64,000 nucleotides of DNA. Origin: Melioribacter roseus (GTDB lineage: Bacteria; Bacteroidota; Ignavibacteria; Ignavibacteriales; Melioribacteraceae). The position numbers and the translations under genes were made by a program. Location: the NCBI GenBank assembly GCA_020724265.1, contig DYHH01000015.1, positions 1 through 64,000 of the forward strand, written 5' to 3'. Positions within the stretch are counted from its first letter, which is position 1. Every line of letters begins with the position of its first letter. The notes below the pieces were generated by a model. That model was given only the letters and a program-made list of their open reading frames with translations. It made no database searches and was not told the origin of the DNA. Of this stretch, positions 28,103-60,443 are shown piece by piece.

Positions 28103-28109
28103 AATTAAA

Positions 28110-40560: not shown

Positions 40561-41085
40561 ATGGGTAAAATTTTAATTCTATACGACAGTGCAAGCGGCA
40601 ATACGGAAAAGATGGCTCAGTACGTAAAAGAAGGTGCCGAATCCTTTGGCGATCACGAAGTTAAGATTAAAAGAGTTGATGACGCATCGTACAAAGATAT
40701 CGAATGGTGTGACGGTATTGCACTCGGTTCTCCCACAAATATGGGAATCGTTTCATGGAAGATGAAAAAGTTTTGGGACGAAATAGGTGACAATGTTTGG
40801 GGAAAAATTGATGGGAAAATCGGCTGCGCATTTTCATCGCAGGGCGGATGGGGAGGAGGAGCTGAAATTACTTGTATGTCGCTTATGACAATCTTAATGA
40901 ACTTTGGTTTTCTTGTATTCGGTTTAACCGATTATGTTGCAGATAAGTTTACGCTTCACTACGGAGCAACTTGTGCGGGCGAACCACGTGAACAAAAAGA
41001 AATTAATGCTTGTAAACAACTTGGTAAAAGATTGTCGCAATGGGTTTCAAAATATGTTGATAAAGAAGAGGTGAAAGTTAAATGA
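40561..41085 (+). CDS. Flavodoxin-family (WrbA-like) quinone reductase or flavodoxin
   Basis: A 174-residue flavodoxin-fold protein. The phosphate-binding loop is YDSASGNTEKMAQ (residues 7-19). GSPTNMGIVSWKMKKF and AFSSQGGWGGGAEIT complete the FMN site, and the latter resembles WrbA-type quinone reductases. There is no signal. Its stop overlaps the xylulokinase ATG by four bases. An electron-transfer or quinone-reducing role next to the aldo/keto reductases is plausible. Why it sits in a sugar operon is unclear. Confidence 0.8.
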   Translation: MGKILILYDSASGNTEKMAQYVKEGAESFGDHEVKIKRVDDASYKDIEWCDGIALGSPTNMGIVSWKMKKFWDEIGDNVWGKIDGKIGCAFSSQGGWGGGAEITCMSLMTILMNFGFLVFGLTDYVADKFTLHYGATCAGEPREQKEINACKQLGKRLSQWVSKYVDKEEVKVK

Positions 41086-42587
41086 GTTATTTCATCGGAC
41101 TTGATGTCGGCACAAGCGGAGCAAAAGCTTTACTCATTAATGAAATGGGTGATGTGATTTCTTCTGCAACAAATGAATATCCAATGCTTACTCCTAAACC
41201 AAATTGGACGGAGCAGAATCCCGAAGATTGGTGGGAAGCAAGCAAGAAAAGTATTCGATCAGTTGCATCTAAAGTTAAGAAAGATGAGATAGAAGGAATC
41301 GGTTTAACGGGACAAATGCACGGTTTAGTTACTCTCGATGATAATTTAAATGTTGTTCGTCCCTGCATTATGTGGAATGACCAAAGAACAGTAAAAGAAT
41401 GTGATGAGATTACAACCAAAATTGGTTTAGAGAAGTTGATAAAAATTACCGGCAATCAAGTTCTTACTGGATTTACAGCTCCTAAAATTTTGTGGATAAA
41501 GAACAATGAGCCTGATAACTATCATAAAATTAAAAAGATTCTTCTTCCTAAAGATTATATAAGATTCAGGTTAACCGGTGAGCTTGCTACTGATGTCTCG
41601 GATGCTTCGGGAACATCTTTGCTAAATGTTCCGGAGAGAAAATGGTCGGATGAAATACTATCAGGATTAGAGATTCCAAAAGAGTGGATGCCGCAACTAT
41701 ATGAATCATCAGAAATATCCGGTAGAGTTAAAAAAGGTTTATGCGAAGAGTTAAACTTACCGGAATATTTAATAGTTGCTGCCGGCGGCGGAGACCAAGC
41801 TGCTGGCGGTATCGGAACCGGAACGGTAAGTGAAGGAATAACTTCTCTTGTACTTGGTACATCAGGAGTTGTATTCGCTCACAGTGATAAGCCGCTAATA
41901 GAAGCAAGTGGAAAAGTTCACTCCTTTTGTCACTCGGTCCCGAATGCTTGGCATGTAATGGGGGTTACGCTTTCTGCGGCAGGTTCTCTTCAATGGTATA
42001 GAAATACTTTTCATAATGGAGTTGATTATTCAGAGTTGACAAAAGCAGCGGAAAATATTCAACCCGGTTCGGAAGGGTTATTTTTTCTACCATATTTGAG
42101 CGGGGAGAGAACGCCATATCCTGACCCAAATGCAAAAGGTACTTTTATCGGAGCAACAGTGCGGCATAACACTTCTCATTTTACAAGAGCTGTTTTGGAA
42201 GGAGTGGCTTACAGCTTGCGAGACTGTTTTGAATTAAATGAAGGTCTCGGTGTAAAAACCGACCAAGTGCGTATATCGGGCGGCGGTGCAAAAAGTAAAA
42301 TGTGGATTCAAATTTTATCTGATTTATTGAATAAGGAAATTGTAACTCTTACTTCAACTGAAGGCGCGCCCTATGGTGCCGCTATTCTCGCCGCAGTTGC
42401 TTCGGGAAAATTTAAATCAGTGGATGAAGCATGTTCTTCGATCATTAAAATAAAATCGGCGACAACTCCGAATAAAGAAAATATCAATATATATGAAGAT
42501 TTCTACAATATTTATAAGAATCTTTACGGTACGCTTAAGAGCACTTTTGTTAATATAAGCAACACCGTGGAGAAATATTCAAATTAG
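41082..42587 (+). CDS. xylB: Xylulokinase
   Basis: A 501-residue FGGY-family kinase that phosphorylates D-xylulose to xylulose 5-phosphate. GLDVGTSGAKALL at the N terminus is the first ATP motif, and the sugar-binding residues fall in GLTGQMHGLV and MWNDQRT. The FGGY signature region shows GVAYSLRDCFE, RISGGGAKSKMWIQIL and EGAPYGAAILAA. The length matches XylB (about 490-500). It overlaps the flavodoxin-like gene by four bases. Xylulose would come from xylan degradation, which fits the GH10 array, but xylA is not in the window. Confidence 0.92.
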   Translation: MSYFIGLDVGTSGAKALLINEMGDVISSATNEYPMLTPKPNWTEQNPEDWWEASKKSIRSVASKVKKDEIEGIGLTGQMHGLVTLDDNLNVVRPCIMWNDQRTVKECDEITTKIGLEKLIKITGNQVLTGFTAPKILWIKNNEPDNYHKIKKILLPKDYIRFRLTGELATDVSDASGTSLLNVPERKWSDEILSGLEIPKEWMPQLYESSEISGRVKKGLCEELNLPEYLIVAAGGGDQAAGGIGTGTVSEGITSLVLGTSGVVFAHSDKPLIEASGKVHSFCHSVPNAWHVMGVTLSAAGSLQWYRNTFHNGVDYSELTKAAENIQPGSEGLFFLPYLSGERTPYPDPNAKGTFIGATVRHNTSHFTRAVLEGVAYSLRDCFELNEGLGVKTDQVRISGGGAKSKMWIQILSDLLNKEIVTLTSTEGAPYGAAILAAVASGKFKSVDEACSSIIKIKSATTPNKENINIYEDFYNIYKNLYGTLKSTFVNISNTVEKYSN

Positions 42588-42629: not shown

Positions 42630-43736
42630 ATGGCGGATGTGGTTCTTAAAAATGTGACAAAAGTTTACGAGGGCGGAACGGTTGCGGTTCGCAACGCAAA
42701 CATAGAAGTAAAAGATAAAGAATTTTTAGTTTTAGTAGGTCCATCGGGATGCGGGAAATCTACAACACTTAGAATGATTGCCGGACTCGAAGAAATAACC
42801 GAAGGTGAACTTTATATCGATAACGAATTAGTGAACAATGTTTCACCAAAGAATCGAAACATAGCAATGGTTTTTCAAAATTATGCTCTTTATCCTCACA
42901 TGACTGTTGCTGAAAATATGGGCTTCGGTTTAAAACTTCGGAAGTACAAAAAAGATCAGATAAAAGAGAGAGTAAATGAAGCGGCAGAAATTTTAGGAAT
43001 AACAGATTTACTTGATAGAAAACCTAAAGCGCTTTCGGGCGGACAGCGGCAGAGAGTTGCTGTCGGGAGAGCGATTGTCCGGCACCCAAAAGTGTTTTTG
43101 TTTGATGAACCGTTAAGTAATCTTGATGCGAAGTTGAGAGTTCAAATGCGTACGGAAATTTCTAAGCTTCATCAAAAACTTGAAGCAACAATGATCTACG
43201 TAACACACGATCAAACTGAAGCGATGACTATGGGTGATAGAATTGTAATTATGAAAGATGGTGATATTCATCAGATAGATACACCGCTTAAACTCTATAA
43301 TCACCCTGCTAATAAATTTGTCGCCGGATTTATCGGTTCGCCTTCTATGAATTTTGTGGACGGTAAAATTATTAAAGAAAACGGACTTTACTTTGTTGAT
43401 AAAGAAAACACAATTAATATAAAAGTATTTACCGAACACGAACATGCTTTAGCAAATTATGTCGATAAAGAAATAACAGCCGGTATTCGTCCCGAAAACA
43501 TTCATCATCCAAGTACTGCTAAAGCAGAAAGTATGGATGAAATCGAAGTAACACTCGATGTAACCGAACCAATGGGGAACGAAATTTTTCTATACTTCAA
43601 CATCGCCGCTTCAAATTGTATTGCAAGAATAGCCGCTATTGAAGAACCGGAACCGGGACAAAAGATGCAGTTATACGTTGATGCTGCAAAGATACATTAC
43701 TTTGATAAAGAATCGGAAGAGGCAATATTAAAATAA
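42630..43736 (+). CDS. Carbohydrate ABC transporter ATP-binding protein (MalK/UgpC/MsmX type)
   Basis: A 368-residue ATPase. Walker A is GPSGCGKST (residues 37-45), the signature is LSGGQ, Walker B is [12 protein letters not shown], and the switch His is in [10 protein letters not shown]. The C-terminal ~130 residues are the OB-fold/TOBE regulatory domain with GIRPENI, as in sugar importers. AAAGGTGA precedes the ATG. The binding protein gene at 45619 is nearby but permease genes are absent from the window, so this ATPase may energise permeases encoded elsewhere, as MsmX does for several importers. Confidence 0.93.
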
Positions 43737-43753
43737 ATTAAAGGAGTGAGGGT

Positions 43754-44512
43754 ATGACGACACTGGAAAAAATAAATATAACCGATGAACAAAAACGGCA
43801 ATATCAAGAAGACGGATTTTTTATTCTTGATAAAGTTATCCCCGATGATGTTCTCGAAACTTTACGCAACGAGTGTGATTCCTTGATCGCGGAACAAGAT
43901 GCCGAGATGGAAAAGCAAGGTGTAACAGAATTAAACTTAAGCAGAAAGAACAGCCGTTACTTTGTATTCCTTGCCTATAAAGAACGGAAAGCATTGGGAG
44001 AATTTATTTTTAGTGATTTGATGGAAGAGATCTGTAAAGCAACAATTGGTGATGATGCATATCTTTTCTGGGAACAGTTTGTCGTAAAGGGATTGGATAA
44101 AAAAGGAGCCGAGTTTACCTGGCATCAAGATTCCGGTTATGTTGACAGTGAACATAAACCTTATGTAAACTGTTGGATTCCTCTGGTTGATGTTAACGAA
44201 GAAAATGGAACTGTTTATTTATTGCCTTATTCTAAAGCAGGAACAAAAGATAAAATTGAGCATAAAGTGATGGAAGGATCGAAAGACCGCGTTGGGTATT
44301 TTGGTGATGAAAGAGGAGTTCCCGTTGTAGCTAAAGCAGGCTCGATTGCTGTCTTTTCAAGTACATGTTTTCATCGCTCCGGACCGAATAACACTGACGA
44401 AATGAGAAGAGCTTGGGCTATCCAATATTCTCCGGAAATTATTTGCGAACCGGATGGCTCGTTAAAAGGATTGGATGAAAAGTTTTTAGAGAACGGGAAA
44501 CGAGTAAGATAG
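43754..44512 (+). CDS. Phytanoyl-CoA dioxygenase family protein
   Basis: A 252-residue Fe(II)/2-oxoglutarate-dependent oxygenase-like protein. The metal facial triad is visible as the HxD of TWHQDSGYV (about residue 121) and the distal His of CFHRSGPNN (about residue 210). Nearby Arg residues (EMRRAWA) may bind 2-oxoglutarate. A strong AAGGAGTGAGGG ribosome-binding site precedes the ATG. Members act on many small molecules, not only phytanoyl-CoA. A requirement for oxygen sits oddly with the glycyl radical enzyme downstream, unless expression is separate. It ends the run of tightly spaced genes before a repeat element. Confidence 0.85.
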   Translation: MTTLEKINITDEQKRQYQEDGFFILDKVIPDDVLETLRNECDSLIAEQDAEMEKQGVTELNLSRKNSRYFVFLAYKERKALGEFIFSDLMEEICKATIGDDAYLFWEQFVVKGLDKKGAEFTWHQDSGYVDSEHKPYVNCWIPLVDVNEENGTVYLLPYSKAGTKDKIEHKVMEGSKDRVGYFGDERGVPVVAKAGSIAVFSSTCFHRSGPNNTDEMRRAWAIQYSPEIICEPDGSLKGLDEKFLENGKRVR

Positions 44513-44567
44513 GTTTTAATTGATTGAATAAAGTAATAACATTCTAAGAACTTTCAGATATAATTAT

Positions 44568-44669
44568 GGAACACAGATGCCCGCTCAATACGCGGGCATA
44601 CACAGAAAAAACTGATTGACACTGATCTGTAAACTGCGTTAATCTGTAGTTTCTGCGTCATCTGCGTTC
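44568..44669. repeat. Intergenic hairpin repeat, CAGATGACGC family (copy 3)
   Basis: Left arm GGAACACAGATG (44568-44579) and right arm TCTGCGTCATCTGCGTTC (44652-44669) with a TATTGTT tail. A separate GCCCGC / GCGGGC hairpin sits near 44579-44597. It is the longest and most degenerate of the three copies, in the gap before the nucleoside hydrolase gene. Confidence 0.82.
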
Positions 44670-44713
44670 TATTGTTGCTAAGTAAATAACCGCCGTTATA
44701 AGGTGAGAAAATC

Positions 44714-45598
44714 TTGAAACAAAAAATACTCCTCGATACCGATATCGGTACAGACATAGACGACGCGGTTGCACTTGCATATTTACTCGCCAATCCCAAA
44801 TGTGATTTGGTTGGAATAACAACCGTAACAGGAGAATCTACCAAGCGGGCAATGATAGCAAGTGCCTTGTGTAAAATTGCAGGTAAAGATATTCCGATTT
44901 ATCCCGGAATTGAAAAACCATTAATCCGCGAACAACTTCAAACTAAAGCACAGCAAGCAAAGGCATTGGATAAATGGGAACACGAAACGAGGTTTCCCCA
45001 AGGTGAAGCAATTGAATTTTTGCGGGAAACAATCAGGCAAAATCCCGATGAAATAATTTTACTTACTATCGGCCCGCTTACAAACATCGGATTACTTTTC
45101 TCAATCGATCCGGAGATTCCATCATTACTTAAAGGAATATATACAATGGCAGGCAACTATAATTTGGAAGCCCCTGCTTACAGCGATGTGGAATGGAATG
45201 CAGAAGGAGATTATCACGCTTCATACATAACTTATTATGCAAACGCAAAAAATCATCATTCAATCGGTATAGATATTACTTCAAGAGTTACAATGGACTC
45301 GGATGAGTTTGCAAAAATATGTAAACACGATTTACTCAAACCGGTTTTGGATTTCTCAAAAGTTTGGTTTGAAGAATGGGATGCTGTTACTTTTCACGAT
45401 CCTTTAGTTGCTGCCACTATCTTTAACGATTCAATCTGTAAATTTGAAAAAGGTCAAGTCGTTGTTGAATTGGATAACAAAGAAAAAATGGGGTTAACTC
45501 ATTGGCATCCTAGAAAAGAACGCGGCAATCATTTGGTTGCTGTTGATGTTAATAAAGAAAAATTCTTTGAAGAATATCTTTCTGTATTTAAAGACTAA
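44714..45598 (+). CDS. Nucleoside hydrolase (inosine-uridine preferring type)
   Basis: Hydrolyses a ribonucleoside to ribose and base. The 294-residue protein has the N-terminal calcium-binding DTDIGTDIDDAVAL motif, with Asp residues at about 7-15, and a second Asp/His region near VTFHDPLVAA (about residue 226) that matches the family. AAGGTGAG precedes the TTG start. Ribose released here could be handled by ribokinase and ribose pyranase at 10909-12253, so the three form a ribose-salvage set despite lying 32 kb apart. Base specificity cannot be read from the sequence. The ABC binding-protein gene follows after 20 bases. Confidence 0.88.
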   Translation: MKQKILLDTDIGTDIDDAVALAYLLANPKCDLVGITTVTGESTKRAMIASALCKIAGKDIPIYPGIEKPLIREQLQTKAQQAKALDKWEHETRFPQGEAIEFLRETIRQNPDEIILLTIGPLTNIGLLFSIDPEIPSLLKGIYTMAGNYNLEAPAYSDVEWNAEGDYHASYITYYANAKNHHSIGIDITSRVTMDSDEFAKICKHDLLKPVLDFSKVWFEEWDAVTFHDPLVAATIFNDSICKFEKGQVVVELDNKEKMGLTHWHPRKERGNHLVAVDVNKEKFFEEYLSVFKD

Positions 45599-45618
45599 TC
45601 ACATACACCGGAAATAAA

Positions 45619-46935
45619 ATGAAAGTATGGAGCGCTCTAAAAGCAGTTCTATTGATTTCGTTGCTGACCTTTCTCTCTTGCAAAAACGAAAACGAATTCA
45701 CTTCATCAAAAATTGAATTAACATTTTGGCACAGCTTCGTTGCTAATACTCATCCTGCATTAAAAGAGTTACTCGATCAATATGAAAAAGAAAATCCCGA
45801 TGTAAAAATAATTGAGCAGTACGTTCCATCCGGCGATCCACTTGTGCAGAAACTTATCACCGCAATTCAAAGCAACACCACACCCGATTTAGCGTGGGTT
45901 CATACTGACTTTCTCGATAAGCTCATACTCGCTGATGCAATCTATAAAATGGATTATTTCATAAACGGTGAAAACGGCTTTACAGAAAAAGAGTTTAATG
46001 ATTTCTTCCCGCAGTTAATCAGTAATGCAAAATGGAACGACACGCTTTATGCAATACCGATGGAAGCCACAACATTAGCTTTACTTTATAACAAGGATTT
46101 GTTTAAGCAAGTCGGACTTGATCCTAACAAACCACCCCAGACTTGGGATGAGTTGAAAGAGTATGCGAACAAGTTAACAATTGATACCGACGGTGATGGG
46201 AAAATGAATCATTATGGATTTTATGTACCGGCACTTCCAGCATCGGGTGCGCTAAGCATTTGGATGCTGCTTCAGTGGGAACCCTATCTCTGGCAAGCCG
46301 GAGGAGAGTTCTTAAATAAAGAGCAAACTAAAGCACTTTTTAATAGTGAAGCCGGAGTAAAAGCATTAACACTTTGGAAAAAAATGTACGATCAAATTGG
46401 TTTTGATTCTTTTTCGATGACTCACGATATGGGATTCATTGCTCAAGCTTGTGCAATGATAATGGACGGGCCGTGGGATTTGCCTTCTCTTCGAAAAATT
46501 AAAAATTTTGATTGGGGTGTTGCTCCGCTTCCCGAAGGTCCCGTTAAAAGAGCTACTTATGTTGCCGGTGAACATTTAACGATATTCAAAAATTCTAAAC
46601 ATCCAGATGAAGCATGGAAATTTATTAAGTGGTTTACTTCACCTGAAATTCAAGCAAAGTTTTCGATTGAATCGGGTTATATGCCTGTTCGCAAATCGAC
46701 TTTGGAATTACAATCATATAAAGATTACTTAAAAACCGATCCGTATCTCGCTGCATTTGTTGAACAGTTTGAAATCGGTTATGCAAGACAGAATATAACA
46801 TACTATCGAGTTGAAATAAATCAACGAGTTGCCGAGGCAATTGAAAGCACACTGCTTGGCGATATGGATCCCAAAGAAGCTCTTGATAAAGCCGCAGAGC
46901 AAGTAAACGAAATATTAAGCAGAGTAAAAAGATGA
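45619..46935 (+). CDS. ABC transporter sugar-binding lipoprotein (family 1)
   Basis: A 438-residue extracellular solute-binding protein. The signal ends in a lipobox (LTFLSCKNENE, Cys at about 21). The rest has the family 1 features: LTFWHSF near the N terminus, NTTPDLAWVHTDFL, and PMEATTLALLYNKDLF. Sugar-type ABC importers use this family. The permease genes normally beside it are missing; the next gene is an SMP-30 lactonase, overlapping by four bases. The matching ATPase could be the one at 42630. The exact ligand, possibly a xylo- or gluco-oligosaccharide, is not decided by sequence. Confidence 0.9.
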   Translation: MKVWSALKAVLLISLLTFLSCKNENEFTSSKIELTFWHSFVANTHPALKELLDQYEKENPDVKIIEQYVPSGDPLVQKLITAIQSNTTPDLAWVHTDFLDKLILADAIYKMDYFINGENGFTEKEFNDFFPQLISNAKWNDTLYAIPMEATTLALLYNKDLFKQVGLDPNKPPQTWDELKEYANKLTIDTDGDGKMNHYGFYVPALPASGALSIWMLLQWEPYLWQAGGEFLNKEQTKALFNSEAGVKALTLWKKMYDQIGFDSFSMTHDMGFIAQACAMIMDGPWDLPSLRKIKNFDWGVAPLPEGPVKRATYVAGEHLTIFKNSKHPDEAWKFIKWFTSPEIQAKFSIESGYMPVRKSTLELQSYKDYLKTDPYLAAFVEQFEIGYARQNITYYRVEINQRVAEAIESTLLGDMDPKEALDKAAEQVNEILSRVKR

Positions 46936-47891
46936 AAAAAACAATTTACATAGTTATAGCAATGGTATTTGTCGATGTAGTTTATTCACAGTGTGGCTGT
47001 ATCGATGACATGAAAAACGATCCGCATAAATATTCCGATAGAATTGAATTGATTTTCGACGGTGGTTTCTTCACCGAAGGTCCCGCTGTTGATTCGGAAG
47101 GAAATGTTTACTTCACCGATTTAACTTTCACTTCCGAAACCGGAAACGAACCGGGACATATTTGGAAGTATTCTCCTTCAGCTAATCAAACTTCTATTTA
47201 TCGTTCGCCAAGCAACATGGCTAACGGAATGATTATAGAAAATGATACACTTTATATTTGCGAAGGAGCGGACACCGGCGGAAGACGATTAATAAAAACC
47301 GATTTAGCTACCGGTAAAAGTTTTATTTTAACAAACAGCTTTAACGGCAAACCCTATAACTCTCCAAACGATTTAACGATAGCAGACGACGGTACAATTT
47401 ATTTTACCGATCCACGCTATGCCGGCGAAGAACCGATTGAACAACCAGTTAACGGAGTTTATCGCTTAAATGTTTTCGGTCAGATTGAACTAATAATTGA
47501 TAATATTTCAATGCCGAATGGTATTACAGTATCACCGGATAACAGAAAGTTGTACGTCGGATGCAATGATGAAAATGCTGATGAGGAGATTCCAAATTTC
47601 ATTGCGGAATATTTGATTAACGAAGAAGGTAAAGTAACCTTCAATAAATATATTGCAAAATTTTTACCACCAACCGGTCCCGATGGAATCAAACTCGGTA
47701 AAGACGGTTTCATTTATGCGGCGTTACGTGATCCGTATCGTCCGGGTATTTATGTTTACTCCCTAGAAGGAGTATTGATTGAAAAAGTGATTCTTCCCGA
47801 AGACCCGAGCAATTTAATTTTCGCCGATGAATCGCAAGAAATATTATATGTGACTGCCGGCGGAAATTTATACAGAGTATCAATGAAATAA
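46932..47891 (+). CDS. SMP-30/gluconolactonase family lactonase, exported
   Basis: A 319-residue six-bladed beta-propeller lactonase. A Sec-type signal (MKKTIYIVIAMVFVDVVYSQ) implies an exported, probably periplasmic enzyme. Metal-site residues fit the family: Glu in FTEGPAVDS, Asn in NSPNDLTI, and Asp in GPDGIKLG. It starts inside the binding-protein gene (ATGA overlap) and would hydrolyse an aldonolactone formed by dehydrogenation of a sugar. Dehydrogenases in the window that could make such a lactone are those at 17209 and 50191, but both look cytoplasmic. Confidence 0.83.
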   Translation: MKKTIYIVIAMVFVDVVYSQCGCIDDMKNDPHKYSDRIELIFDGGFFTEGPAVDSEGNVYFTDLTFTSETGNEPGHIWKYSPSANQTSIYRSPSNMANGMIIENDTLYICEGADTGGRRLIKTDLATGKSFILTNSFNGKPYNSPNDLTIADDGTIYFTDPRYAGEEPIEQPVNGVYRLNVFGQIELIIDNISMPNGITVSPDNRKLYVGCNDENADEEIPNFIAEYLINEEGKVTFNKYIAKFLPPTGPDGIKLGKDGFIYAALRDPYRPGIYVYSLEGVLIEKVILPEDPSNLIFADESQEILYVTAGGNLYRVSMK

Positions 47892-47910: not shown

Positions 47911-47966
47911 TACTCAGTTATTCTCTGCGGTACTCAGTGAATATCTCTGTGGTTCTATGTGTAATA
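47911..47966. repeat. Intergenic repeat, CTCTGTGGTTCTCTGTG family (copy 2)
   Basis: TACTCAGTGAATATCTCTGTGGTTCTATGTG in shortened form lies between the lactonase and the GH92 gene. The repeat overlaps the apparent first ATG of the GH92 frame, which argues for the downstream start at 47984. Confidence 0.75.
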
Positions 47967-47983
47967 TTTTGAAGGATATTATT

Positions 47984-50194
47984 ATGCTAAGAAATGTAAA
48001 ACTGTTTTCAACCTTATTTATTCTTTTCTTTAATGTTGCAGTTAATCTATTCCCTCAATCAAAGACAGAATTAATTAACTATGTAAATCCGTTCATCGGC
48101 ACATCAAACGGAGGCAACACGTTTCCGGGTGCGGTTGTACCTTGGGGGATGGTGAGTGTTAGTCCGCACAATTCACCTGGCTCTCCATCCGGTTATATTT
48201 ATGGGGGAAAGTATTTCTACGGATTCGGTCACACACATTTAAGCGGCACCGGCTGCTCAGAACTTGGTAACATAATAATTACAATTACTAAAACTAATAC
48301 AACTGACCCCGAGAATTATAAAACAACCTACTCCAATGAGACAGCATCCCCCGGTTATTATTTTCTTTACTTGGATGAATACAAAATCAAAGCTGAAGTC
48401 TCGACATCGGAAAGAAGCGGTATAATTAAATTTACTTCTGAAGAAGAAGTTGAAATTGATTTATTAATTGATGTAGGAAGAAATTTAAGTTTAGTTGGCG
48501 GCGGCGAAATTGAAATATTATCGAACAGAGAGATTACTGGCTATAACATAAGCGGCGGCTTCTGCGGGGAAGAGAATCGAAAGAATGTTTATTTTTATTC
48601 GCAGCTAAATTATGAAGCAGAGAAAATGACCATTTCTCATGATGATACAATAATAGATGAAACAAAGTATTCCGTAAAGGACGAACCGCTTGTTTGCTCT
48701 GCACGAATAAAAATTCAGCCTGATAAACCGTTGATCATTAAAACCGGCATATCATATACAAACAAAGAAAACGCAAAGGAGAATTTGTTAAAGGAAATTA
48801 TTCATTGGGATTTTGATGAAGTAGTTAATTATGCAAAAGATAAATGGAACAAAGTATTAAGTCAAATAATTGTCAACGATTCAGAGAGAACTAACAAGAT
48901 GAAATTTTACTCTGCTTTATATCATATGTTGATTCATCCGAATATCATAAGTGATTTCAATGGTGATTATCCTACTATGAATGAACATAAAGTGAAAAAT
49001 TATTCCGATCGAAACAGATATTCAGTTTATTCATTGTGGGATACGTACAGAACACTGCACCCGTTTTTAACATTGGCTTATCCTAAACAACAATCAGATA
49101 TGATTAAGACAATGATTGATATGTATGATGAACAAGGTTACTTACCAAAATGGGAATTGATCGGTAACGAAACTTATATGATGGTCGGGAATCCCGCTGT
49201 ACCGGTCATTGTTGACAGTTATGTAAAAGGTATATGTGATTTTGACATCAACAAAGCATACGAAGCAATTCTTAAGCCTGTAAATCTTGATAAAAATGAA
49301 AAAGCACCACCTGTACGGGCAGCGTATCACTATATATTAGAATACGGCTACATTCCTTTCGATCAAAACATGGAAGATGAATGGTGGGCGTGGGGACCTG
49401 TGTCAACTACTTTGGAATACAATTATGCAGATTGGACAATCTCTCAATTAGCGGGATTACTAGATGATACAGAAAATCAAAATAAATTTTACCAACGATC
49501 ACTTAGCTACAAAAAATTGTTCGATCCTGAAACTAAATTCCTCAGACCGAAATTAAAAAACGGCGAATGGATGGAGCCGTTTGATCAACTTGCAACAGAA
49601 GGTTCGGGTGATTGGGTTGGTTCGGGCGGACCTGGTTATGTTGAAGGAAATGCTTGGAATTACACCTGGTTTGTTCCGCATAATGTGCTCGGATTGATTG
49701 AATTATTCGGTGGTGAAAAAGAGTTTTCAGAAAAGTTATTGGAATCATTTATTAATGAACAATTTACAATCAATAATGAACCGGATATTTTTTATCCGTA
49801 TTTATTCAAGTACACAGATAACTATTCACTTCACACAAGTGAATTAGTAGATCAAATTATGGACTCGGAATTCGGAATTGATGAAAACGGATTACCCGGA
49901 AATGATGACTGCGGTACAATATCCGGTTGGTTTGTATTTTCTGCATTTGGATTTTATCCGGTTTGCCCCGGTTCGGATGATTACGTTTTAAATCAACCGT
50001 TATTTGATGAAATAGAAATTCAACTTGATCAAAATTACTATAGTGGAAATGAGTTGGTAATCAAAAAGAAATTTGGAAATACTAGAGAAGTAATATTTAA
50101 TGGAAGTCGTATGAATTCTAACTTCATAAAGCACAGCGAAATTATAAAAGGTGGTGAATTAATATTTATAATTCCCAACGGAGAAGAGAAATGA
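47984..50194 (+). CDS. GH92-family alpha-1,2-mannosidase-like enzyme
   Basis: A 736-residue exported, calcium-dependent inverting glycosidase. The start is the ATG at 47984, eight bases after a GAAGGA ribosome-binding site; the upstream ATG at 47957 lies in repeat sequence. A Sec signal (cleavage near NLFPQ) is followed by the family segment VNPFIGTSNGGNTFPGAVVP (about 30-50). Later motifs are YSLWDTYRTLHP, GYLPKWEL with the acid Glu, and GNDDCGTISGWFVFSAFGF, as in GH92. Typical activity is on alpha-mannosides. It overlaps the next gene by four bases. Confidence 0.92.
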   Translation: MLRNVKLFSTLFILFFNVAVNLFPQSKTELINYVNPFIGTSNGGNTFPGAVVPWGMVSVSPHNSPGSPSGYIYGGKYFYGFGHTHLSGTGCSELGNIIITITKTNTTDPENYKTTYSNETASPGYYFLYLDEYKIKAEVSTSERSGIIKFTSEEEVEIDLLIDVGRNLSLVGGGEIEILSNREITGYNISGGFCGEENRKNVYFYSQLNYEAEKMTISHDDTIIDETKYSVKDEPLVCSARIKIQPDKPLIIKTGISYTNKENAKENLLKEIIHWDFDEVVNYAKDKWNKVLSQIIVNDSERTNKMKFYSALYHMLIHPNIISDFNGDYPTMNEHKVKNYSDRNRYSVYSLWDTYRTLHPFLTLAYPKQQSDMIKTMIDMYDEQGYLPKWELIGNETYMMVGNPAVPVIVDSYVKGICDFDINKAYEAILKPVNLDKNEKAPPVRAAYHYILEYGYIPFDQNMEDEWWAWGPVSTTLEYNYADWTISQLAGLLDDTENQNKFYQRSLSYKKLFDPETKFLRPKLKNGEWMEPFDQLATEGSGDWVGSGGPGYVEGNAWNYTWFVPHNVLGLIELFGGEKEFSEKLLESFINEQFTINNEPDIFYPYLFKYTDNYSLHTSELVDQIMDSEFGIDENGLPGNDDCGTISGWFVFSAFGFYPVCPGSDDYVLNQPLFDEIEIQLDQNYYSGNELVIKKKFGNTREVIFNGSRMNSNFIKHSEIIKGGELIFIIPNGEEK

Positions 50195-51180
50195 GAAAAG
50201 TAAAACTCGGAATTATCGGAACAGGTTTAGCTGCAAAGAATTTACACTTACCGGCATTGCAGAAATTAAAAAACAAATTTGAAATTGTTGCGGTCTGTAA
50301 TCATACAGAAAAGAAAGCAAAGGAATTTTCTAAGATGGTTGGTGATGTTCCATATCATCTAGATTACAAAGAATTATTAAAACGCGAAGATGTTGAAGCA
50401 GTTGATATCGCTTTACCAATTAATTTGAACTACAATGTGGCTAAAGAATCAATAAAAGCCGGTAAGCATGTTTTCTTAGAAAAACCTCTTGCCGGGAATA
50501 TGCATCAAGCAAAACAACTTTTGGATATGGATAAGAAAAGTAAAACTGTAAATATGGTTGCCGAAAATTTTCGGTACAGAAAAGTTTTTCTGAAAGCAAA
50601 GGATCTAATTGAAAAAGGAAAGATCGGTAAACCTTATGCTGTGAATTGGAATTTATATTATCATGTAACGACTGATAAAGATTATTGGTCAACCAAGTGG
50701 AGACAAAAACACGAACATCCCGGCGGCTTTTTACTTGATGCAGGTGTTCACAATGTTGCTGCAATAAGAATGATACTCGGTGATTTTAAGTCCGGTAATG
50801 CGCTTATTAAATCCGTCAACCCTAAGATCGGAACGTTTGATACGACTGTTTTTCAATTTGAATTAAAGAATGGAATTGTTGGTCTTTATAATCTTTACTT
50901 TTCGGTAAACGGTCATTGGGAGGATAAATTCCTAATCTTTGGCGATCAAGGTAGTATCGAAATCAATACAAATGTTTTGACACTTAAACAGGAAGGCAAG
51001 AAAGATAAAACTGAAGATTTAACCGACGGACATGGTTATGATGCGGAGTTCAATGATTTTTATAATGCAATTGTTAAAGGAACTAAAGTAGATTATTCAT
51101 TTAAAGAAGCTTATCGAGATATGGAGATAGTTTTGGGTGCTTTGAAGTCCGCTGAGAATAAAAGGAAGGTTAATTTTTAA
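50191..51180 (+). CDS. Gfo/Idh/MocA family sugar dehydrogenase 2
   Basis: A 329-residue NAD(P)-dependent oxidoreductase. The N-terminal Rossmann motif is GIIGTGLAAKNLH (residues 7-19). The conserved Lys is in FLEKPLAGN (about residue 98) and the conserved Asp/His in FLLDAGVHNV. It starts inside the GH92 gene by four bases. It is shorter than the enzyme at 17209 and clearly not its recent duplicate. This is the last gene of the 44-kb plus-strand block; a ~70-base gap without visible signal follows. Confidence 0.87.
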   Translation: MRKVKLGIIGTGLAAKNLHLPALQKLKNKFEIVAVCNHTEKKAKEFSKMVGDVPYHLDYKELLKREDVEAVDIALPINLNYNVAKESIKAGKHVFLEKPLAGNMHQAKQLLDMDKKSKTVNMVAENFRYRKVFLKAKDLIEKGKIGKPYAVNWNLYYHVTTDKDYWSTKWRQKHEHPGGFLLDAGVHNVAAIRMILGDFKSGNALIKSVNPKIGTFDTTVFQFELKNGIVGLYNLYFSVNGHWEDKFLIFGDQGSIEINTNVLTLKQEGKKDKTEDLTDGHGYDAEFNDFYNAIVKGTKVDYSFKEAYRDMEIVLGALKSAENKRKVNF

Positions 51181-51929: not shown

Positions 51930-52790
51930 CTATGAGGGTATAACATTCTTTCTGTGCTGCTTTCTAAAATCACCTGGCGATAAGTTGTATTTCTTTTTAA
52001 ATAGATGGTAATAGTGGCTCAAATTTTCGAAACCGCTTTCCATTGCAATGTAGGGAATGCTTTCGTCGGTTGTCATAAGTAAGTTAGCGCTGTAATTTAA
52101 TCGAAGATCGTTAATGTATTCAGTAGGTGTTTGAGCATAATGTTTTTTAAATTCTCTGCAAAGATGCTCTTTTGATCTATGTGAGATTTCTACCATCGAT
52201 CCGAATCCGTTTACAAATTTTTCTTTCTGCTGCATTTCGGATCTGGTTTCTTCCAGCCATTTCGGAACAGAACTTCGTTGTATCCAAAAACTTTTTGAGA
52301 AATAGTTTGTCATTATCTCCGCTAATAAAATTCTAAGGGCCGTTCTTATTTCAGATTTTTTACTTAGAGGAATTAACTGAAGTTTTTCAAATCTTTCTTT
52401 TAAAATTGTTTTTTCAGTCGAAGATAAAATTGTTGAGGGAGGAAGCTTACTTTCAAGTAGTCTCTCTGCTTCAAATCCTTCTCCTAAATAATCAAATAAC
52501 TCGGCAATAGTTTTTTTAGGAAAAGCTAAATTTATCAATTCGACTTCATCTTTCTCATGCTTTTGATAATAATGAATATCATTCGGTCTCATAAATATCA
52601 TTGTACCTTCATCAAGAACTTGTTCGTTATCATTAATGATGTGCTTAACCTTTCCCTTTGCAATTAAAAATATTTCATAAAAATCATGAGTATGTTTGAC
52701 AGTTATATCTTTTAACGATTTGTGAAACGCATAATGAATTTCTGTCTGTGGATCGAGGATTTCTTCAGTATATATTTTAATTGGACTCAT
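51930..52790 (-). CDS. AraC-family transcriptional regulator with cupin sensor domain
   Basis: A 286-residue regulator. The N-terminal ~110 residues form a cupin sensor (VKHTHDFYEIFLIAKG, VLDEGTMIFMRPND). The C-terminal two helix-turn-helix unit is complete: SKEHLCREFKKHYAQTP, then IPYIAMESGFENLSHYYHLF and KKYNLSPGDFRKQ. It is divergent from the glycyl radical enzyme, with a 117-base gap that contains direct-repeat candidates for its operator. It is the obvious candidate to control the enzyme-activase pair. The inducer is probably a sugar or derived compound, by family precedent. Confidence 0.9.
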   Translation of the reverse strand: MSPIKIYTEEILDPQTEIHYAFHKSLKDITVKHTHDFYEIFLIAKGKVKHIINDNEQVLDEGTMIFMRPNDIHYYQKHEKDEVELINLAFPKKTIAELFDYLGEGFEAERLLESKLPPSTILSSTEKTILKERFEKLQLIPLSKKSEIRTALRILLAEIMTNYFSKSFWIQRSSVPKWLEETRSEMQQKEKFVNGFGSMVEISHRSKEHLCREFKKHYAQTPTEYINDLRLNYSANLLMTTDESIPYIAMESGFENLSHYYHLFKKKYNLSPGDFRKQHRKNVIPS

Positions 52791-52803
52791 ATCTCGTAAA
52801 AAT

Positions 52804-52905
52804 CAATATAATACAATTAATTAATCATTCTAAAACAAGATAATGCCTATATATCTTTGTATTTATCTAATGTCAATATAACAATTAACTACATAATATC
52901 AATAT
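52804..52905. promoter_or_regulatory. Direct-repeat operator candidates, AraC / glycyl radical enzyme intergenic region
   Basis: CAATATAATACAATTAA at 52804-52820 and CAATATAACAATTAA at 52874-52888 are near-identical direct repeats 70 bases apart. A partial third copy, TCAATAT, lies at 52899-52905. Direct-repeat half sites are normal for AraC-type proteins. No strong sigma-70 hexamers were identified for either gene. Confidence 0.5.
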
Positions 52906-52907: not shown

Positions 52908-55139
52908 ATGAAAAAGAAAGATTTCAAAACCGAACTAAAATTTACCGAGACATATAAGAAATATCAAAACGACCATCCTGCAATTAGAGAAGCAAAATGT
53001 CTCGATGCTCAATACCCGGATTATTTTGCCGAAATAAAGAAGGGCGATCTTTTCGCCGGACGAATTGATCACGGTTTAGTCGGATTCAGTATTGACGAAT
53101 GGGGATCGACTGCATTCGGATATTACTGCCAATTCGAAGAAATAGAAAAGTGCTTAACTGACTTCAATTATTCCCCTAAGGAAGGAAAAGAAATCAGAGA
53201 CATGATGAAATTTTGGGAGAAGGAAGATACTTCGAACAAACTTCGTGAAGCGTATCCTGATGAAATGAAAAAATGGTTACCGACCGATGACTGGATGAAT
53301 GCTTCCGGAATTGCATTTCCTCTTTATAGATTAACCGGCGGAAATATTGATAACGAAAAATTAGTAATGCTCGGAATACCGGGATTGCAAAAGGAAATTA
53401 AGGCAAAACTCGAGCAAGCAGAATCTGACAAACAAGAATTCTACGAAGGAGCATTATTAGCAATTGATGTTTTGGTTAAAGTGGCAAACCATTACGCTAC
53501 ACAAGCAAGATATTTTGCTGAAGAAACTAATGATAAGAAGTGGAAAAACGAGCTTATAAAAATTGCCAATACACTTGATTTAATAACACAAAGTAAACCG
53601 AAAACACTTCGCGAAGCAATACAACTTTTTTGGCTTTACTCATTGATAAGCGATATACGCAATCATGGAAGAATGGATGTTTATTTCGGTGACTTTCTCG
53701 CCAATGATTTACAAAGCGGTGTATTGACAAAAGATGAAGCATTGATGTTGTTACAATCACTTTGGAAGTTAATGGCCGATAGAGATACAGTTGTGCACGG
53801 AAGAATTATAATCGGTGGAAAAGGAAGGCGGAATGAGAAAAATGCCGATGCGTTTGCGTTACTTGCTCTTGAGGCAAGTCGAACAGTATTGGAAGTCGAG
53901 CCGCAGCTTTCATTAAGAATTTATGACGGAATGGATGAACGAATTTACGAAAAAGCACTCGATGTAATTGGTGAAGGAAGAACTTATCCAATTTTATATA
54001 ATGATGAAGTAAATATCCCTTCGATTGTAAAAGCGCTTGAATTCAAACCGCTGGAAGCCGAGCAATATGTTCCTTACGGCTGCGGTGAATATATTTTAGA
54101 ACATCAATCGTTCGGAACACCAAGCGGAGTAATAAACTTATTGAAAGCACTCGAAGTTACTCTTCATAACGGTGTTGATCCTATAACCGGTAAAGTTATT
54201 GGTCTGCAGTTCGGAGAGTTCAACGATTTTGAAACATTTGATGATTTATGGAATGCATATAAAAAACAAATTGAATTCTTTGTCGATTTAATGGCTCAGC
54301 AGGAAGTAATCGAATATAAAATAGCTGCTCAATCTGCTCCTTTTCTTTTTGCAAGTATTTTATACGACGATTGTTTAGAAAAAGGTAAAGGTTTGTTCGA
54401 AGGAGGAATTCGCTATTTGGGTGGAACGCTTGAAACATACGGAAACACAAACACAGCGGACAGTTTAACCGCGATTAAAAAATTAGTTTATGAGCAAAAG
54501 AAAATTACCCAAGAAGAATTGCTAAATGCACTCGACAATAAATTTGAGGGCTACGACAATCTTAGAAAAGAATTATTACAGCAACCCAAATACGGTAACG
54601 ATAATGACGAAGCCGATTCAATGCTTGTTAAAGTTCACGAACACGTTTGTAATTATGTGCGAGATCAGAAAGGCAAGGTCGATTTGCATTCATACCTAGT
54701 AGTTATAATTAATAACTCGGCTAATACATTAATGGGTCATTCCACTTCAGCATCAGCAGACGGCAGGTTATCCGGGACATACATGAACAACGGCAATGCA
54801 CCTTCGGGCGGCAGCGACAAAGAAGGTGTAACCGCAATGTTGAATTCAATCACAAAGCCGGATACCTCAATACATGCGGGAGCCGTGCAGAATATGAAAT
54901 TCAGTAGAAAAATGTTCATGGAAAACAGAAATGAGTTGAAAGCTTTATTAAAAACATATTTTGAAAAAGGCGGACAGCAGGCAATGATAACTGTCGTAAA
55001 TAGAAATGATCTCGAGAACGCAATGCAAGAACCGGAAAAATATCAACACTTATTTGTAAGAGTTGGTGGATTCAGCGCAAGATTTGTTGAGCTTTCACCT
55101 GACGTTCAAAAAGATATTTTAAATAGAACTTTGTATTAG
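52908..55139 (+). CDS. Glycyl radical enzyme (pyruvate formate-lyase/dehydratase family), substrate unknown
   Basis: Oxygen-sensitive radical enzyme, 743 aa from the ATG at 52908 (a longer TTG start at 52857 is unlikely). It carries a catalytic Cys in YVPYGCGEYI (C392) and a C-terminal glycyl radical site RVGGFSARF with radical G721. A single Cys followed by Gly-Glu is not the Cys-Cys pair of true pyruvate formate-lyase. Characterised diol- and glycerol-dehydratase-like members read GCVE. The Glu two residues after Cys is retained, which favours a dehydratase or lyase of unknown specificity. The activase follows at 55172. A deoxysugar-derived diol is one possible substrate in this context. 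Confidence 0.85.
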   Translation: MKKKDFKTELKFTETYKKYQNDHPAIREAKCLDAQYPDYFAEIKKGDLFAGRIDHGLVGFSIDEWGSTAFGYYCQFEEIEKCLTDFNYSPKEGKEIRDMMKFWEKEDTSNKLREAYPDEMKKWLPTDDWMNASGIAFPLYRLTGGNIDNEKLVMLGIPGLQKEIKAKLEQAESDKQEFYEGALLAIDVLVKVANHYATQARYFAEETNDKKWKNELIKIANTLDLITQSKPKTLREAIQLFWLYSLISDIRNHGRMDVYFGDFLANDLQSGVLTKDEALMLLQSLWKLMADRDTVVHGRIIIGGKGRRNEKNADAFALLALEASRTVLEVEPQLSLRIYDGMDERIYEKALDVIGEGRTYPILYNDEVNIPSIVKALEFKPLEAEQYVPYGCGEYILEHQSFGTPSGVINLLKALEVTLHNGVDPITGKVIGLQFGEFNDFETFDDLWNAYKKQIEFFVDLMAQQEVIEYKIAAQSAPFLFASILYDDCLEKGKGLFEGGIRYLGGTLETYGNTNTADSLTAIKKLVYEQKKITQEELLNALDNKFEGYDNLRKELLQQPKYGNDNDEADSMLVKVHEHVCNYVRDQKGKVDLHSYLVVIINNSANTLMGHSTSASADGRLSGTYMNNGNAPSGGSDKEGVTAMLNSITKPDTSIHAGAVQNMKFSRKMFMENRNELKALLKTYFEKGGQQAMITVVNRNDLENAMQEPEKYQHLFVRVGGFSARFVELSPDVQKDILNRTLY

Positions 55140-55171
55140 ACTTTGCGTCCTCGCGACTTAGCGGCTTACTA
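55138..55171. repeat. Short GC-richer intergenic element, CTTTGCGTCCTCGCGACTTAGCGG type
   Basis: A 34-base spacer between the glycyl radical enzyme stop and the activase start, rich in GCG/CGC and unlike its AT-rich surroundings. It contains no ORF or clear ribosome-binding site. Its composition resembles a dispersed intergenic repeat, but I see only one copy here, so this is weakly supported. Confidence 0.4.
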
Positions 55172-56092
55172 ATGAATTTACATAATCATCATAAAGGACT
55201 TGTCTCCGATATACAAAGATTCTCGCTTCACGATGGACCGGGAATTCGCACAACTGTGTTCTTAAAAGGATGTCCGCTTAACTGCAAATGGTGTCACAAT
55301 CCCGAAACACAAATATCAAAACCACAGTTATCATTTTCTCTAGATAAATGTATGAACTGTTTTAAGTGCGTTGAAGCTTGTCCAACCGGAGCGCACTACA
55401 TCAAAGATGAACAACACAAAATAAATTTCTCGACATGTGAATTATCAGGAGAATGCGTTTCAGTTTGCCCCAACGATGCATTAAAAATTATTGGTAAAGA
55501 AAATTCCGTTAACGAAACTCTTGAGTTAGTCTTACGCGATAAAGAATATTACAAAAACTCCGGCGGCGGCTTAACAATTTCCGGCGGCGAACCGATGAAT
55601 CAGTTCTCGTTTACCAGAGATCTGCTTCAGCTTGCAAAGTTAAACGGAATACATACCGTACTTGAAACTTGCGGCTTCGCACCAAAAAATCGCTATCTCG
55701 AGATAATTCATTTAGTCGATTTATTTCTTTACGATTACAAAGAAACCGATCCGGTAAAACATAAAGAGTTCACCGGAGTTGACAGCAAAGTTATCATTGA
55801 TAATTTAAAAATGCTTCACAATAACGGAGCAAAAGTTATTCTTCGATGTCCTATCATTCCAAGCGTGAATGATAGAGATGATCATTTTGAAGGAATAGCC
55901 GAGTTGGTTTCTCAGCTTCCGAATTTAATTTCGGTAGATTTGATGGCTTATCATGATAGCGGAAGAGATAAAGCTGTTAAGGTTGGAAGAGATAACGAAT
56001 ATTATCATATCGAAAATGCAACTGAAGAAATGAAAAATGAATGGCTGCAGAAATTGAACGAGTTTAATGTTAATAACGTTTCAATTGGATAG
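55172..56092 (+). CDS. Glycyl radical enzyme activase (radical SAM)
   Basis: Installs the glycyl radical on its partner. The 306-residue protein has the radical-SAM cluster motif CPLNCKWCHNPE (Cx3Cx2C, near residue 35). An inserted ferredoxin-like domain with two Cys clusters follows: CMNCFKCVEACPTG, and CELSGECVSVCPNDA (about 57-105). The double-cluster insert marks the dehydratase/decarboxylase-type activases and is absent from pyruvate formate-lyase activases. SGGGLTISGGEP is the SAM glycine-rich motif. It lies 32 bases after the enzyme gene and is surely its partner. It has no visible ribosome-binding site because the spacer is occupied by an unusual sequence. Confidence 0.93.
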   Translation: MNLHNHHKGLVSDIQRFSLHDGPGIRTTVFLKGCPLNCKWCHNPETQISKPQLSFSLDKCMNCFKCVEACPTGAHYIKDEQHKINFSTCELSGECVSVCPNDALKIIGKENSVNETLELVLRDKEYYKNSGGGLTISGGEPMNQFSFTRDLLQLAKLNGIHTVLETCGFAPKNRYLEIIHLVDLFLYDYKETDPVKHKEFTGVDSKVIIDNLKMLHNNGAKVILRCPIIPSVNDRDDHFEGIAELVSQLPNLISVDLMAYHDSGRDKAVKVGRDNEYYHIENATEEMKNEWLQKLNEFNVNNVSIG

Positions 56093-56428: not shown

Positions 56429-57424
56429 ATGGAATATCGTTATTTAGGTAAATCCGGATTAAAAGTATCAGCACTTTCATTCGGTTCATGGGTTACATTT
56501 CATGATCAAATAGGTGAAGATGTTGCATACAAATGTATGAAAGAAGCATACGATGCGGGCGTAAACTTTTTTGATAACGCCGAAGTTTATGCAAACGGTC
56601 AATCGGAAATATTGATGGGAAAAGTATTAAAGAAAACCGGTTGGAAAAGAAGTGATCTTGTTTTATCAACAAAAATATTTTGGGGTGGAGAAGGTCCAAA
56701 CGATAAAGGTCTTTCGCGGAAACACATAATTGAAGGGACAGAAGCCGCATTAAAAAGAATGCAAGTAGATTACGTTGACTTAATATTTTGCCATCGTCCT
56801 GATATTCACACACCGATTGAAGAAACCGTTAGAGCAATGAACCATATTATTAATCAAGGTAAAGCATTCTATTGGGGAACGAGTGAATGGACAGCTCAGC
56901 AAATTATGGAAGCATACGGAATTGCAAGACGTGAACACTTAATTCCACCACTTATGGAACAACCGGAATACAATATGTTCAGAAGAGAAAAAATTGAAAA
57001 GGAATATCTTCAACTTTACAATGAAGTTGGTTTAGGAACAACAATCTGGAGTCCCCTTGCAAGTGGCTTATTAACCGGAAAGTATGTTGATGGAATTCCC
57101 GAAGGAAGTAGACTCAATCTTAAGGGTTATGAATGGCTGAGAGATTGGATTTTAAATGAAGATGGGAAAAAACGTAATGTGAAAGTGAAGGATTTAATTC
57201 CAATTGCCAAAGAAATTGGTGTAACCATGCCCGAACTTGCGATCGCATGGTGTTTAAAAAACACAAATGTAAGTACAGTAATAACCGGTGCATCAAATGC
57301 AGATCAAGTAAAACAAAACATGAAAGCTCTTGATGCAGTTGAAAAGTTAACCGTTGAAGTAATGGAAAGAATTGAAGAAATCTTAGATAATAAACCTCAA
57401 CTCGAATGGGATCACAGAGTTTAG
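56429..57424 (+). CDS. Aldo/keto reductase 3 (potassium channel beta-subunit-like group)
   Basis: A 331-residue NADPH-linked reductase. The catalytic residues are Asp in [10 protein letters not shown], Tyr four on, Lys in STKIFWGG, and His in [25 protein letters not shown] and [18 protein letters not shown] resemble the Kv-beta-like branch. AAAGGAGGA precedes the ATG. It is separated from the activase by the palindrome cluster and so may have its own promoter. It ends near a tRNA-like hairpin and terminator. Reducing an aldehyde made by the glycyl radical enzyme would be attractive but is unproven. Confidence 0.88.
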
Positions 57425-57644: not shown

Positions 57645-59861
<2,217 letters not shown>

Positions 59862-60017
59862 TTACATAGATTCTAAATTACATCAGTTTATAAAACGCTG
59901 AGGATACTGATTTATTTTTCCAGCACCATTCTTTTTTTGATGACTTTTCCCAAAAACATGATTAAACTTTGCGTACTGTTTGTATAAATATATTACAATG
60001 ATCAATAGGGTACTCAA

Positions 60018-60443
60018 TTAATTCTTTTTGCTATCAAACGTGCCAATTATCTGAAGCTTTATGTCCTTTATTGCAAAATTAGAAATTTTCTTTTTTTCGA
60101 AATATTTTATTAGGATCTCATTTAGTTCATCGTCAAAAAAATCTTCTATACGTTTAGTCTCCTCACAATACAAATGATGATGTCGATCAAGTATCGCATC
60201 ATATCTCATCACACCTTCTTCGGTTTTTACCCTATTGACCATTCCCTTTTCAACAAAAGTTTCGAGGGTTTTATAAATTGTACCGACCGCTATGTTGGGA
60301 TTATTCTTAACCACGTACTCTTTAATCTTATCTGCAGTGGGATGATCCTTTAAATTGTCCAAAGCTTCAAGAACGGCTGTTCTTTGAGGTGTAACTTTTA
60401 AGTTGCTGTCTTTTAATTTATTTCCGTACTTTTCTTTTGTCAT
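60018..60443 (-). CDS. PerR/Fur-family peroxide-responsive repressor
   Basis: A 141-residue Fur-superfamily protein, PerR-like. The N-terminal winged helix (KVTPQRTAVLEAL, NIAVGTIYKTLETFVEKG) is followed by the metal site RYDAILDRHHHLYC, with His, Asp and His ligands as in PerR. The family usually has CxxC structural-zinc pairs; here HHHLYC is followed by EET, not CxxC, and no later Cys pair exists, so that zinc site is lost. Upstream (60459-60507) is a TTGACA-N17-TATCTT promoter with an overlapping inverted repeat. KatG lies directly downstream on the same strand and is a likely target. Confidence 0.85.
   Translation of the reverse strand: MTKEKYGNKLKDSNLKVTPQRTAVLEALDNLKDHPTADKIKEYVVKNNPNIAVGTIYKTLETFVEKGMVNRVKTEEGVMRYDAILDRHHHLYCEETKRIEDFFDDELNEILIKYFEKKKISNFAIKDIKLQIIGTFDSKKN

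Follow-up and report, generated by a model that had tools for sequence, protein, structure and literature searches.

A candidate glycyl radical eliminase of a separate clade in a sugar-degrading gene island of Melioribacter roseus

The diol dehydratases among the glycyl radical enzymes (GREs), with the B12-independent glycerol dehydratase (PDB 1r8w/1r9d), are the closest described systems to a GRE encoded in a 64,000-nucleotide stretch of Melioribacter roseus DNA (the window; contig 13 of a 3.77 Mb assembly). They belong to the same fold family as the window GRE and share with it the radical glycine, the catalytic cysteine and the glutamate of the CXE motif. The glycerol dehydratase is its best match of solved structure, with E values of 2e-81 for the single sequence and 2e-114 for the profile. 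The best matches to solved structures were glycerol dehydratase, trans-4-hydroxyproline dehydratase (HypD) and the choline lyase CutC, all of which are eliminases. HypD has the CXE pair in common with the window GRE, and also a beta1 arginine whose place is the same or nearly so. In the parts of two papers used here, CXE is described as the conserved mark of GRE eliminases, most of which probably use its glutamate as the base (PMC7077986, PMC8473560); one of the two reports strict conservation nowhere in these enzymes except on the Cys and Gly loops. YbiW and PflD of E. coli are anhydrohexitol-6-phosphate lyases, that is, GREs acting on a sugar alcohol, as given in the part of a review consulted.

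The window GRE belongs to a separate clade, and we propose that it is, somewhat more probably than otherwise, a 1,2-eliminase which, with its activase and under a dedicated AraC-type regulator, would act on a sugar-derived, perhaps acidic, polyol. An eliminase is proposed because the CXE pair is found in 19/19 clade genomes and because the best solved-structure matches are eliminases, and a substrate from sugars because of the sugar-island context and the co-occurrence with a nucleoside hydrolase. Gly721, Cys392, Glu394, the activase gene, an operator-like repeat and the links to the sugar island are read in the sequence; from these we infer catalysis and substrate. The parts of the GRE unit are as follows.

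52908-55139, + strand: GRE of 743 amino acids, start codon ATG at 52908, PF02901 and PF01228 over cut-off
54078-54089, + strand: codons of the Cys loop Gly391-Cys392-Gly393-Glu394, read in the DNA and invariant in an 8-row alignment
55068-55070, + strand: codon (GGA) of the radical Gly721 in RVGGF, placed by alignment
55172-56092, + strand: radical-SAM activase of the GRE, 306 amino acids, with a ferredoxin-like insert (TIGR02494; Cys positions)
51930-52790, - strand: divergent AraC-family regulator, PF12833 and PF02311 over cut-off
52802-52838, + strand: probable AraC operator, a conserved repeat of two direct half-sites ATCAN7ACAA 22 bp apart

The GRE scored 421 bits with PF02901 (cut-off 24.3) and 83 bits with PF01228 (cut-off 22.2), so far above the cut-offs that a chance likeness is excluded, and it is the sole PF01228 match in the whole assembly. 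The first-pass annotation, made from the sequence alone, had described a GRE with its cysteine in YGCGEY, an activase ending at 56092 and a divergent AraC gene. Coordinates and domain scores confirmed all three, with Cys392 encoded by TGC at 54081.

The GCGE clade and its distribution

In a tree of 59 GREs, a single branch, supported at 100/100, separates the 13 rows carrying GCGE from the rest; its stem measures 1.42 changes per site, and the HypD, YbiW, PflD and glycerol-dehydratase-like rows fall outside. The set left out L026 and L058 for length, while L041 is the same gene as L003 and L043-L046 are fragments; its 46 non-clade rows were not drawn at random but comprise the nearest matches and three GREs of E. 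coli. Identity of the window GRE to the HypD rows (L070, L011, L014, which exceed the NF043068 cut-off), the glycerol-dehydratase-like rows, YbiW, PflD and PflB was 28-33%. More closely, it was 28-31% to HypD, about 32% to the glycerol-dehydratase-like rows, and 31-33% to YbiW and PflD, which stand on a separate branch (100/100) and have other gene neighbours. The nearest rows in the tree, with weak support of 84/48, are the uncharacterised GREs L055 and L064. These are also shortened before GRFD but differ in carrying GCNQ and GCSQ, with Gln in place of the CXE Glu, and share 29-33% identity with the window GRE. The same Glu-to-Gln exchange is seen in two other GREs, L057 and L061 (GCVQ, GCIQ).

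No NCBIfam cut-off was reached by the window GRE or by 5/5 clade members tested. The window GRE scored 329 bits with the HypD model NF043068 (cut-off 1100), 287 bits with the CutC model TIGR04394 (cut-off 1050), and 329 and 288 bits with the sulfopropanediol GRE models HpsG NF048011 and HpfG NF048009 (cut-offs 1000). Pyruvate formate-lyase, TIGR01255, gave 86 bits against a cut-off of 994, and the enzyme has a single cysteine and no CC pair. With the broad formate C-acetyltransferase/glycerol dehydratase family TIGR01774 (cut-off 678), the window GRE reached 360 bits and five clade members 274-377. This cut-off was also missed by the three HypD rows and by L055, L064 and L069, so the miss is weak proof by itself. 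An uncharacterised cluster had been anticipated in the first-pass annotation, and the support of the clade, the cut-offs and an identity that peaks at 34.6% among the 14 non-clade GREs compared, with no close identity to a GRE of known substrate among them, all agree with it. A published GRE network used identity above about 60% to part enzymes of different function, in the part of the paper drawn on (PMC6453916). Judged by that threshold, the window group makes up one separate cluster or more, and the clade as a whole probably comprises several. No publication on the GCGE clade was evident in literature searches, judged mostly from titles and the starts of abstracts, with subscription papers largely outside their scope.

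The clade was seen in 19 genomes of Ignavibacteriales and Clostridia, a lower bound; relatives of the window GRE include those of an Ignavibacteriales metagenome-assembled genome (MAG) at 93% identity and an Oscillospiraceae MAG at 39%. Sampling covered sets of the phylum and the order on the Bacteroidota side and the class of the Oscillospiraceae genome. A clade GRE was found in at least 7/395 genomes across the phylum, in 13/146 Ignavibacteriales, which overlap the phylum sample, and in at least 6/391 genomes of the class, where the lowest member scored 764 bits and the next full match 443; for the phylum and Clostridia counts, scoring was limited to about two candidates per genome, which makes them lower bounds. 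The Clostridia rows from genomes G666 and G494 nest with good support among the Ignavibacteriales rows, a placement that suggests transfer between phyla.

A probable further member, L058 (genome G783), consists of a C-terminal GRE portion preceded by unrelated sequence, and lies beside an activase. It is either a truncated gene or an assembly join, its Cys loop is not covered, and it is counted outside the 19. Viral contigs were set aside as a source of relatives: three of five scans yielded nothing, one gave five loci, of the pyruvate formate-lyase type or with a partial GRE, and one gave a single locus on a contig already seen. The viral contigs of L119/L120 and L121/L122 encode a pyruvate formate-lyase-type GRE with the CC pair.

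Active site, activase and proposed reaction

The Cys loop GCGE differs from GCVE by a single letter and retains the Glu two places after the Cys, so that the CXE motif is present as C392-G393-E394. GCGE was found in 13/13 of the first clade rows and 6/6 later members, and in 0/46 of the other GREs of the set; it is a clean clade marker. The first-pass annotation had called this active-site motif unusual. The absence of the CC pair stands, but GCGE is a case of G-C-x-E and lies inside the eliminase pattern. With the CXE pair intact, the motif argues for an eliminase, and GCGE as a sign of unusual chemistry is rejected, judging from the parts of the two papers that treat this motif (PMC7077986, PMC8473560). 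A second sequence marker, GGxGRxN, is in 13/13 of the first clade rows and 0/46 others, and is missing from L127 and L128 among five full-length later rows.

The real differences of the clade, as read from alignments, are the beta1 site and a shortened segment. At the beta1 site, studied enzymes carry Gln193 (IslA), Asp216 (CutC) and His160 (HypD), according to the section used (PMC8473560). The 12 clade rows that cover this site have Gly as aligned, or G/A/T/M/I if the register is shifted by one, and one later row has S in the shifted register; none has His, Asp or Gln, and HypD His160 is without an equivalent in the window GRE. Among the 15 non-clade rows shown, 14 have His and one has Glu. 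In addition, all 13 clade rows lack 6-7 residues immediately ahead of GR[MLI]D in comparison with the glycerol-dehydratase-like rows and HypD, a shortening not unique to the clade, since L055 and L064 share it. In glycerol dehydratase this stretch holds the residues which we take to be His281 and Ser282. HypD Asp278 is located in the same stretch, as given in the part of the paper available (PMC7077986). Placement of the gap is uncertain, as one alignment puts an Asp at the place of Asp278 in 10/13 rows only.

Residues characteristic of glycerol/propanediol dehydratase are replaced in the clade rows. At the columns of those presumably numbered His164 and Asp447 in glycerol dehydratase, the rows show, respectively, Gly as aligned (the other register gives G/A/S/T/M/I) and Pro; the glycerol-dehydratase-like rows thus differ from the window GRE at these two positions and at the His281 segment. 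Arg141 is conserved in 17/17 clade rows covering the position and aligns at, or one residue off, the site common to HypD Arg156 and IslA Arg189, which hints at a carboxylate or phosphate on the substrate. All these active-site differences are alignment readings, and the AlphaFold2 models built from 3 and 6 rows (mean predicted local distance difference test scores of 39.5 and 55.0; Cys and Gly loops below 50) were too poor for checking them.

The activase scored 335 bits with TIGR02494 (cut-off 174) and has CX3CX2C at Cys 34/38/41. The double iron-sulphur insert ascribed to it earlier is there as a ferredoxin-like insert, but with 7 rather than 8 canonical cysteines (60/63/66/70 and 89/95/99). 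Among 20 clade activases, 11 share the absence of that one Cys from the second motif, 6 carry the full eight, two have lost more and one has no insert. The two with most of the insert cysteines lost are L138 and L139 (genomes G787 and G788), and the one without the insert is at 1883-2596 of L080 (genome G395). As the insert is missing or degraded in some activases, it is not essential across the clade.

By analogy with studied GRE eliminases, the activase would form a glycyl radical on Gly721 without oxygen. Cys392 would then become a thiyl radical and take a hydrogen from a hydroxyl-bearing carbon, while Glu394 would deprotonate that hydroxyl. Upon departure of the neighbouring oxygen, by dehydration or ring opening, the hydrogen would be returned, leaving a deoxy aldehyde or ketone. 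Where an aldo-keto reductase is encoded next to the GRE, it would reduce this product or a cleavage product of it. The aldo-keto reductase gene starts 336 bases past the end of the activase gene; it is also beside the GRE in genomes G120, G047, G220, G113 and G836, and not in G144, G341, G787, G788 and G789.

Regulation and the sugar island

The sequence ATCAN7ACAA-N7-ATCAN7ACAA lies at 52802-52838, between araC and the GRE gene. AraC dimers are expected to bind direct half-sites about two helical turns apart. This probable operator was defined by eye on six related loci and is present in 6/6 of them, with a gap of 6 in G144. In four loci outside the definition set it was found again, perfect in three and with one mismatch in G788, the gap being 7 in all. 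It occurs once in the whole genome, and an operator-type pair appeared in 0 to 2 of 20,000 Markov sequences of five of the loci. When three mismatches were allowed, the window gave 2 matches against 2.3 expected by chance; loose matches are at chance level, so only the perfect form is informative. The operator is absent from G341 and from the four Clostridia spacers tested, and G694 has one half-site. Direct repeats had been remarked on before: a 12-nt pair does exist at 52868 and 52894 (spacer 18% GC), but the conserved repeat is the other one, and the 12-nt pair was set aside as an operator since the near relative G120 keeps one copy only. The regulator seems dedicated to the GRE promoter region in Ignavibacteriales. 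Given the conserved putative operator, which is single in this genome, the locus looks like a dedicated and regulated unit, as had been supposed.

The GRE unit lies towards one end of a roughly 55 kb island (1157-57424), a sugar-degrading region as the first-pass annotation had held: family searches identified glycosidases, sugar kinases, dehydrogenases and a nucleoside hydrolase. The island genes named in the comparisons below are these.

10903-11823, + strand: ribokinase (TIGR02152, 367 bits, cut-off 300; NF008353, 342.2, cut-off 341)
11852-12253, + strand: D-ribose pyranase (NF008761, 160 bits, cut-off 93)
41082-42587, + strand: xylulokinase-type FGGY kinase (TIGR01312, 604 bits, cut-off 380)
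44714-45598, + strand: IunH-type nucleoside hydrolase (PF01156, 177 bits, cut-off 34; motifs read)
45619-46935, + strand: sugar-type ABC substrate-binding protein (PF13416 over cut-off)
46932-47891, + strand: SMP-30/gluconolactonase-like protein (PF08450, 110 bits)
47957-50194, + strand: GH92 glycosidase (PF07971, 500 bits)
50191-51180, + strand: Gfo/Idh/MocA dehydrogenase (PF01408 and PF02894 over cut-off)
56429-57424, + strand: aldo-keto reductase (TIGR01293, 416 bits, cut-off 365)

The island further contains a TonB receptor, GH106, GH42, five GH10-like, alpha-amylase-type and GH2 genes, besides MalK, a PhyH-type oxygenase and Gfo/Idh enzymes. Its genes recur in G047, G220, G144 and G113, with the order and orientation of blocks varying, and partly in G120 and G836; nearly the whole window is a catabolic island conserved, with rearranged blocks, in at least four other Ignavibacteriales genomes. 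The five GH10-like paralogues are consecutive (22891-31452; PF00331, E 1e-12 to 1e-22), and as substrate clues they were set aside with GH106, since together they point to no particular glycan. At 42630-46935, an ATP-binding cassette (ABC) ATPase and the binding protein are encoded, and no ABC permease family was found among the 38 window proteins scanned with Pfam. Just past the GRE unit, 57645-60443 presumably encodes a catalase-peroxidase and a Fur/PerR-type protein.

The nucleoside hydrolase carries the motifs DTDxGxDxDD, E(F/W)N and HD, and the hydrolases linked to GREs keep these family motifs, whose roles we assume to be those generally given for IunH enzymes. Among 146 Ignavibacteriales, 13 have the GRE and 17 have IunH (both 11, GRE only 2, IunH only 6, neither 127), that is, IunH is in 11/13 GRE-positive and 6/133 GRE-negative genomes (Fisher 8e-11, inflated by kinship). 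When IunH hits below 150 bits were discarded, a cut set once the scores were known, the counts became both 10, GRE only 3, hydrolase only 1 and neither 132 (3e-12, likewise inflated). An earlier subset had IunH in 0/33 GRE-negative relatives; 6/133 of the larger sample is the better figure. The hydrolase gene is within 10 kb of the GRE in 8/19 clade genomes (G000, G047, G220, G144, G113, G836, G494 and G395), 30 kb from it in G120, and elsewhere, weakly matched or absent in 10/19. In the distant G395 it directly follows the activase gene, and in G494 homologues of the GH106, ribokinase and nucleoside hydrolase genes lie close to the GRE. No such partners were seen in the other four Clostridia loci, two of which end at contig edges.

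Weighing the possible substrates

Most probably, the enzyme acts on a polyol that derives from sugar and arises within the pathway of the island. A deoxysugar-derived diol had been suggested at first; the genomic links point to ribosides and to the dehydrogenase/lactonase-like pair at least as much. Several observations weigh against the proposed eliminase of a sugar-derived polyol. The beta1 His, Asp or Gln of studied eliminases is missing and the segment with catalytic residues in relatives is shortened, and the mechanism of the clade may therefore differ. The lactonase-like and Gfo/Idh neighbours are missing in G341 (none of SMP-30-like, Gfo/Idh and GH92 within the stretch read), G789 (none of the three on its 21.7 kb contig) and most Clostridia loci, and the nucleoside hydrolase is on another contig in G787-G789. 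With neighbours so variable, substrates may differ within the clade. In addition, the oxygen-using PhyH-type protein (43754-44512) in the island of an oxygen-sensitive GRE is unexplained; its gene is retained in G120, G047, G220, G144, G113 and G836.

Two narrower readings overlap with the favoured polyol. The first, a specific form of it, is a sugar-acid dehydratase, which we regard as a minority possibility. Here the Gfo/Idh enzyme would oxidise an aldose to a lactone, the SMP-30-like protein would open it, and the GRE would dehydrate the aldonate to a keto-deoxy acid, with Arg141 perhaps holding the carboxylate. Where the GRE occurs without the remainder of the island, the neighbours that most often accompany it are the Gfo/Idh and SMP-30-like genes (G787, G788, and G809, where GH92 also stays). 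However, neither is nearby in G789, G341 or most Clostridia loci, and the N-terminus of the SMP-30-like protein, as we read its sequence, resembles a signal peptide, so that it may not share the compartment of the GRE.

The second is a riboside pathway, a little less probable again, in which the GRE would act on ribose, a ribose-derived polyol or the aglycone freed by the nucleoside hydrolase. The co-occurrence of IunH, its closeness in eight genomes and its position beside the activase in G395 are consistent with this, as are the ribokinase and ribose pyranase of the island and the ribokinase homologue near the GRE in G494. On the other hand, the hydrolase may serve another branch of the island, its gene is distant, elsewhere or absent in the remaining clade genomes, and the related genomes are not independent. 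If so, and we think it doubtful, this could be the first GRE of riboside or nucleoside breakdown, one that dehydrates or ring-opens a ribose-derived or glycosidic intermediate supplied via the nucleoside hydrolase. Its pocket would then, with the same tentativeness, be one without the beta1 His/Asp/Gln and without part of the segment used by the studied eliminases compared.

It is improbable that the enzyme is a much diverged form with a known activity, either glycerol/propanediol dehydratase or a ring-opening lyase like YbiW/PflD. The glycerol dehydratase is indeed the best solved relative, and 1,5-anhydroglucitol-6-phosphate lyase YbiW is also a sugar enzyme according to the part of the review consulted, but identity is only 31-33%, the clade has other residues at the His164 and Asp447 positions, and no microcompartment, phosphotransferase system or fructose-6-phosphate aldolase family was found among the 38 scanned window proteins. 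A decarboxylase or C-C lyase instead of an eliminase is very unlikely: arylacetate decarboxylases also have a Glu two residues past the Cys, and the indoleacetate and hydroxyphenylacetate decarboxylase models gave 258 and 231 bits, but these are far below cut-off, the HypD, HpsG, HpfG and CutC models score higher at 287-329 bits (the PflD-type model, at 247, does not), the CC pair of pyruvate formate-lyase is absent, and the neighbouring genes concern sugars rather than aromatic acids.

Many abundant GREs of gut microbes are of no known function, as stated in the part of a review drawn on (PMC11574389). For this clade, the clean markers across two phyla, the operator-like repeat that is single in the genome, the co-occurring hydrolase and the conserved sugar island are handles that reduce the field of candidate substrates to compounds derived from sugars or ribosides and bring an anaerobic assay within reach. 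Should the substrate prove new, it would add an anaerobic reaction of sugars and show another way of building a GRE pocket.

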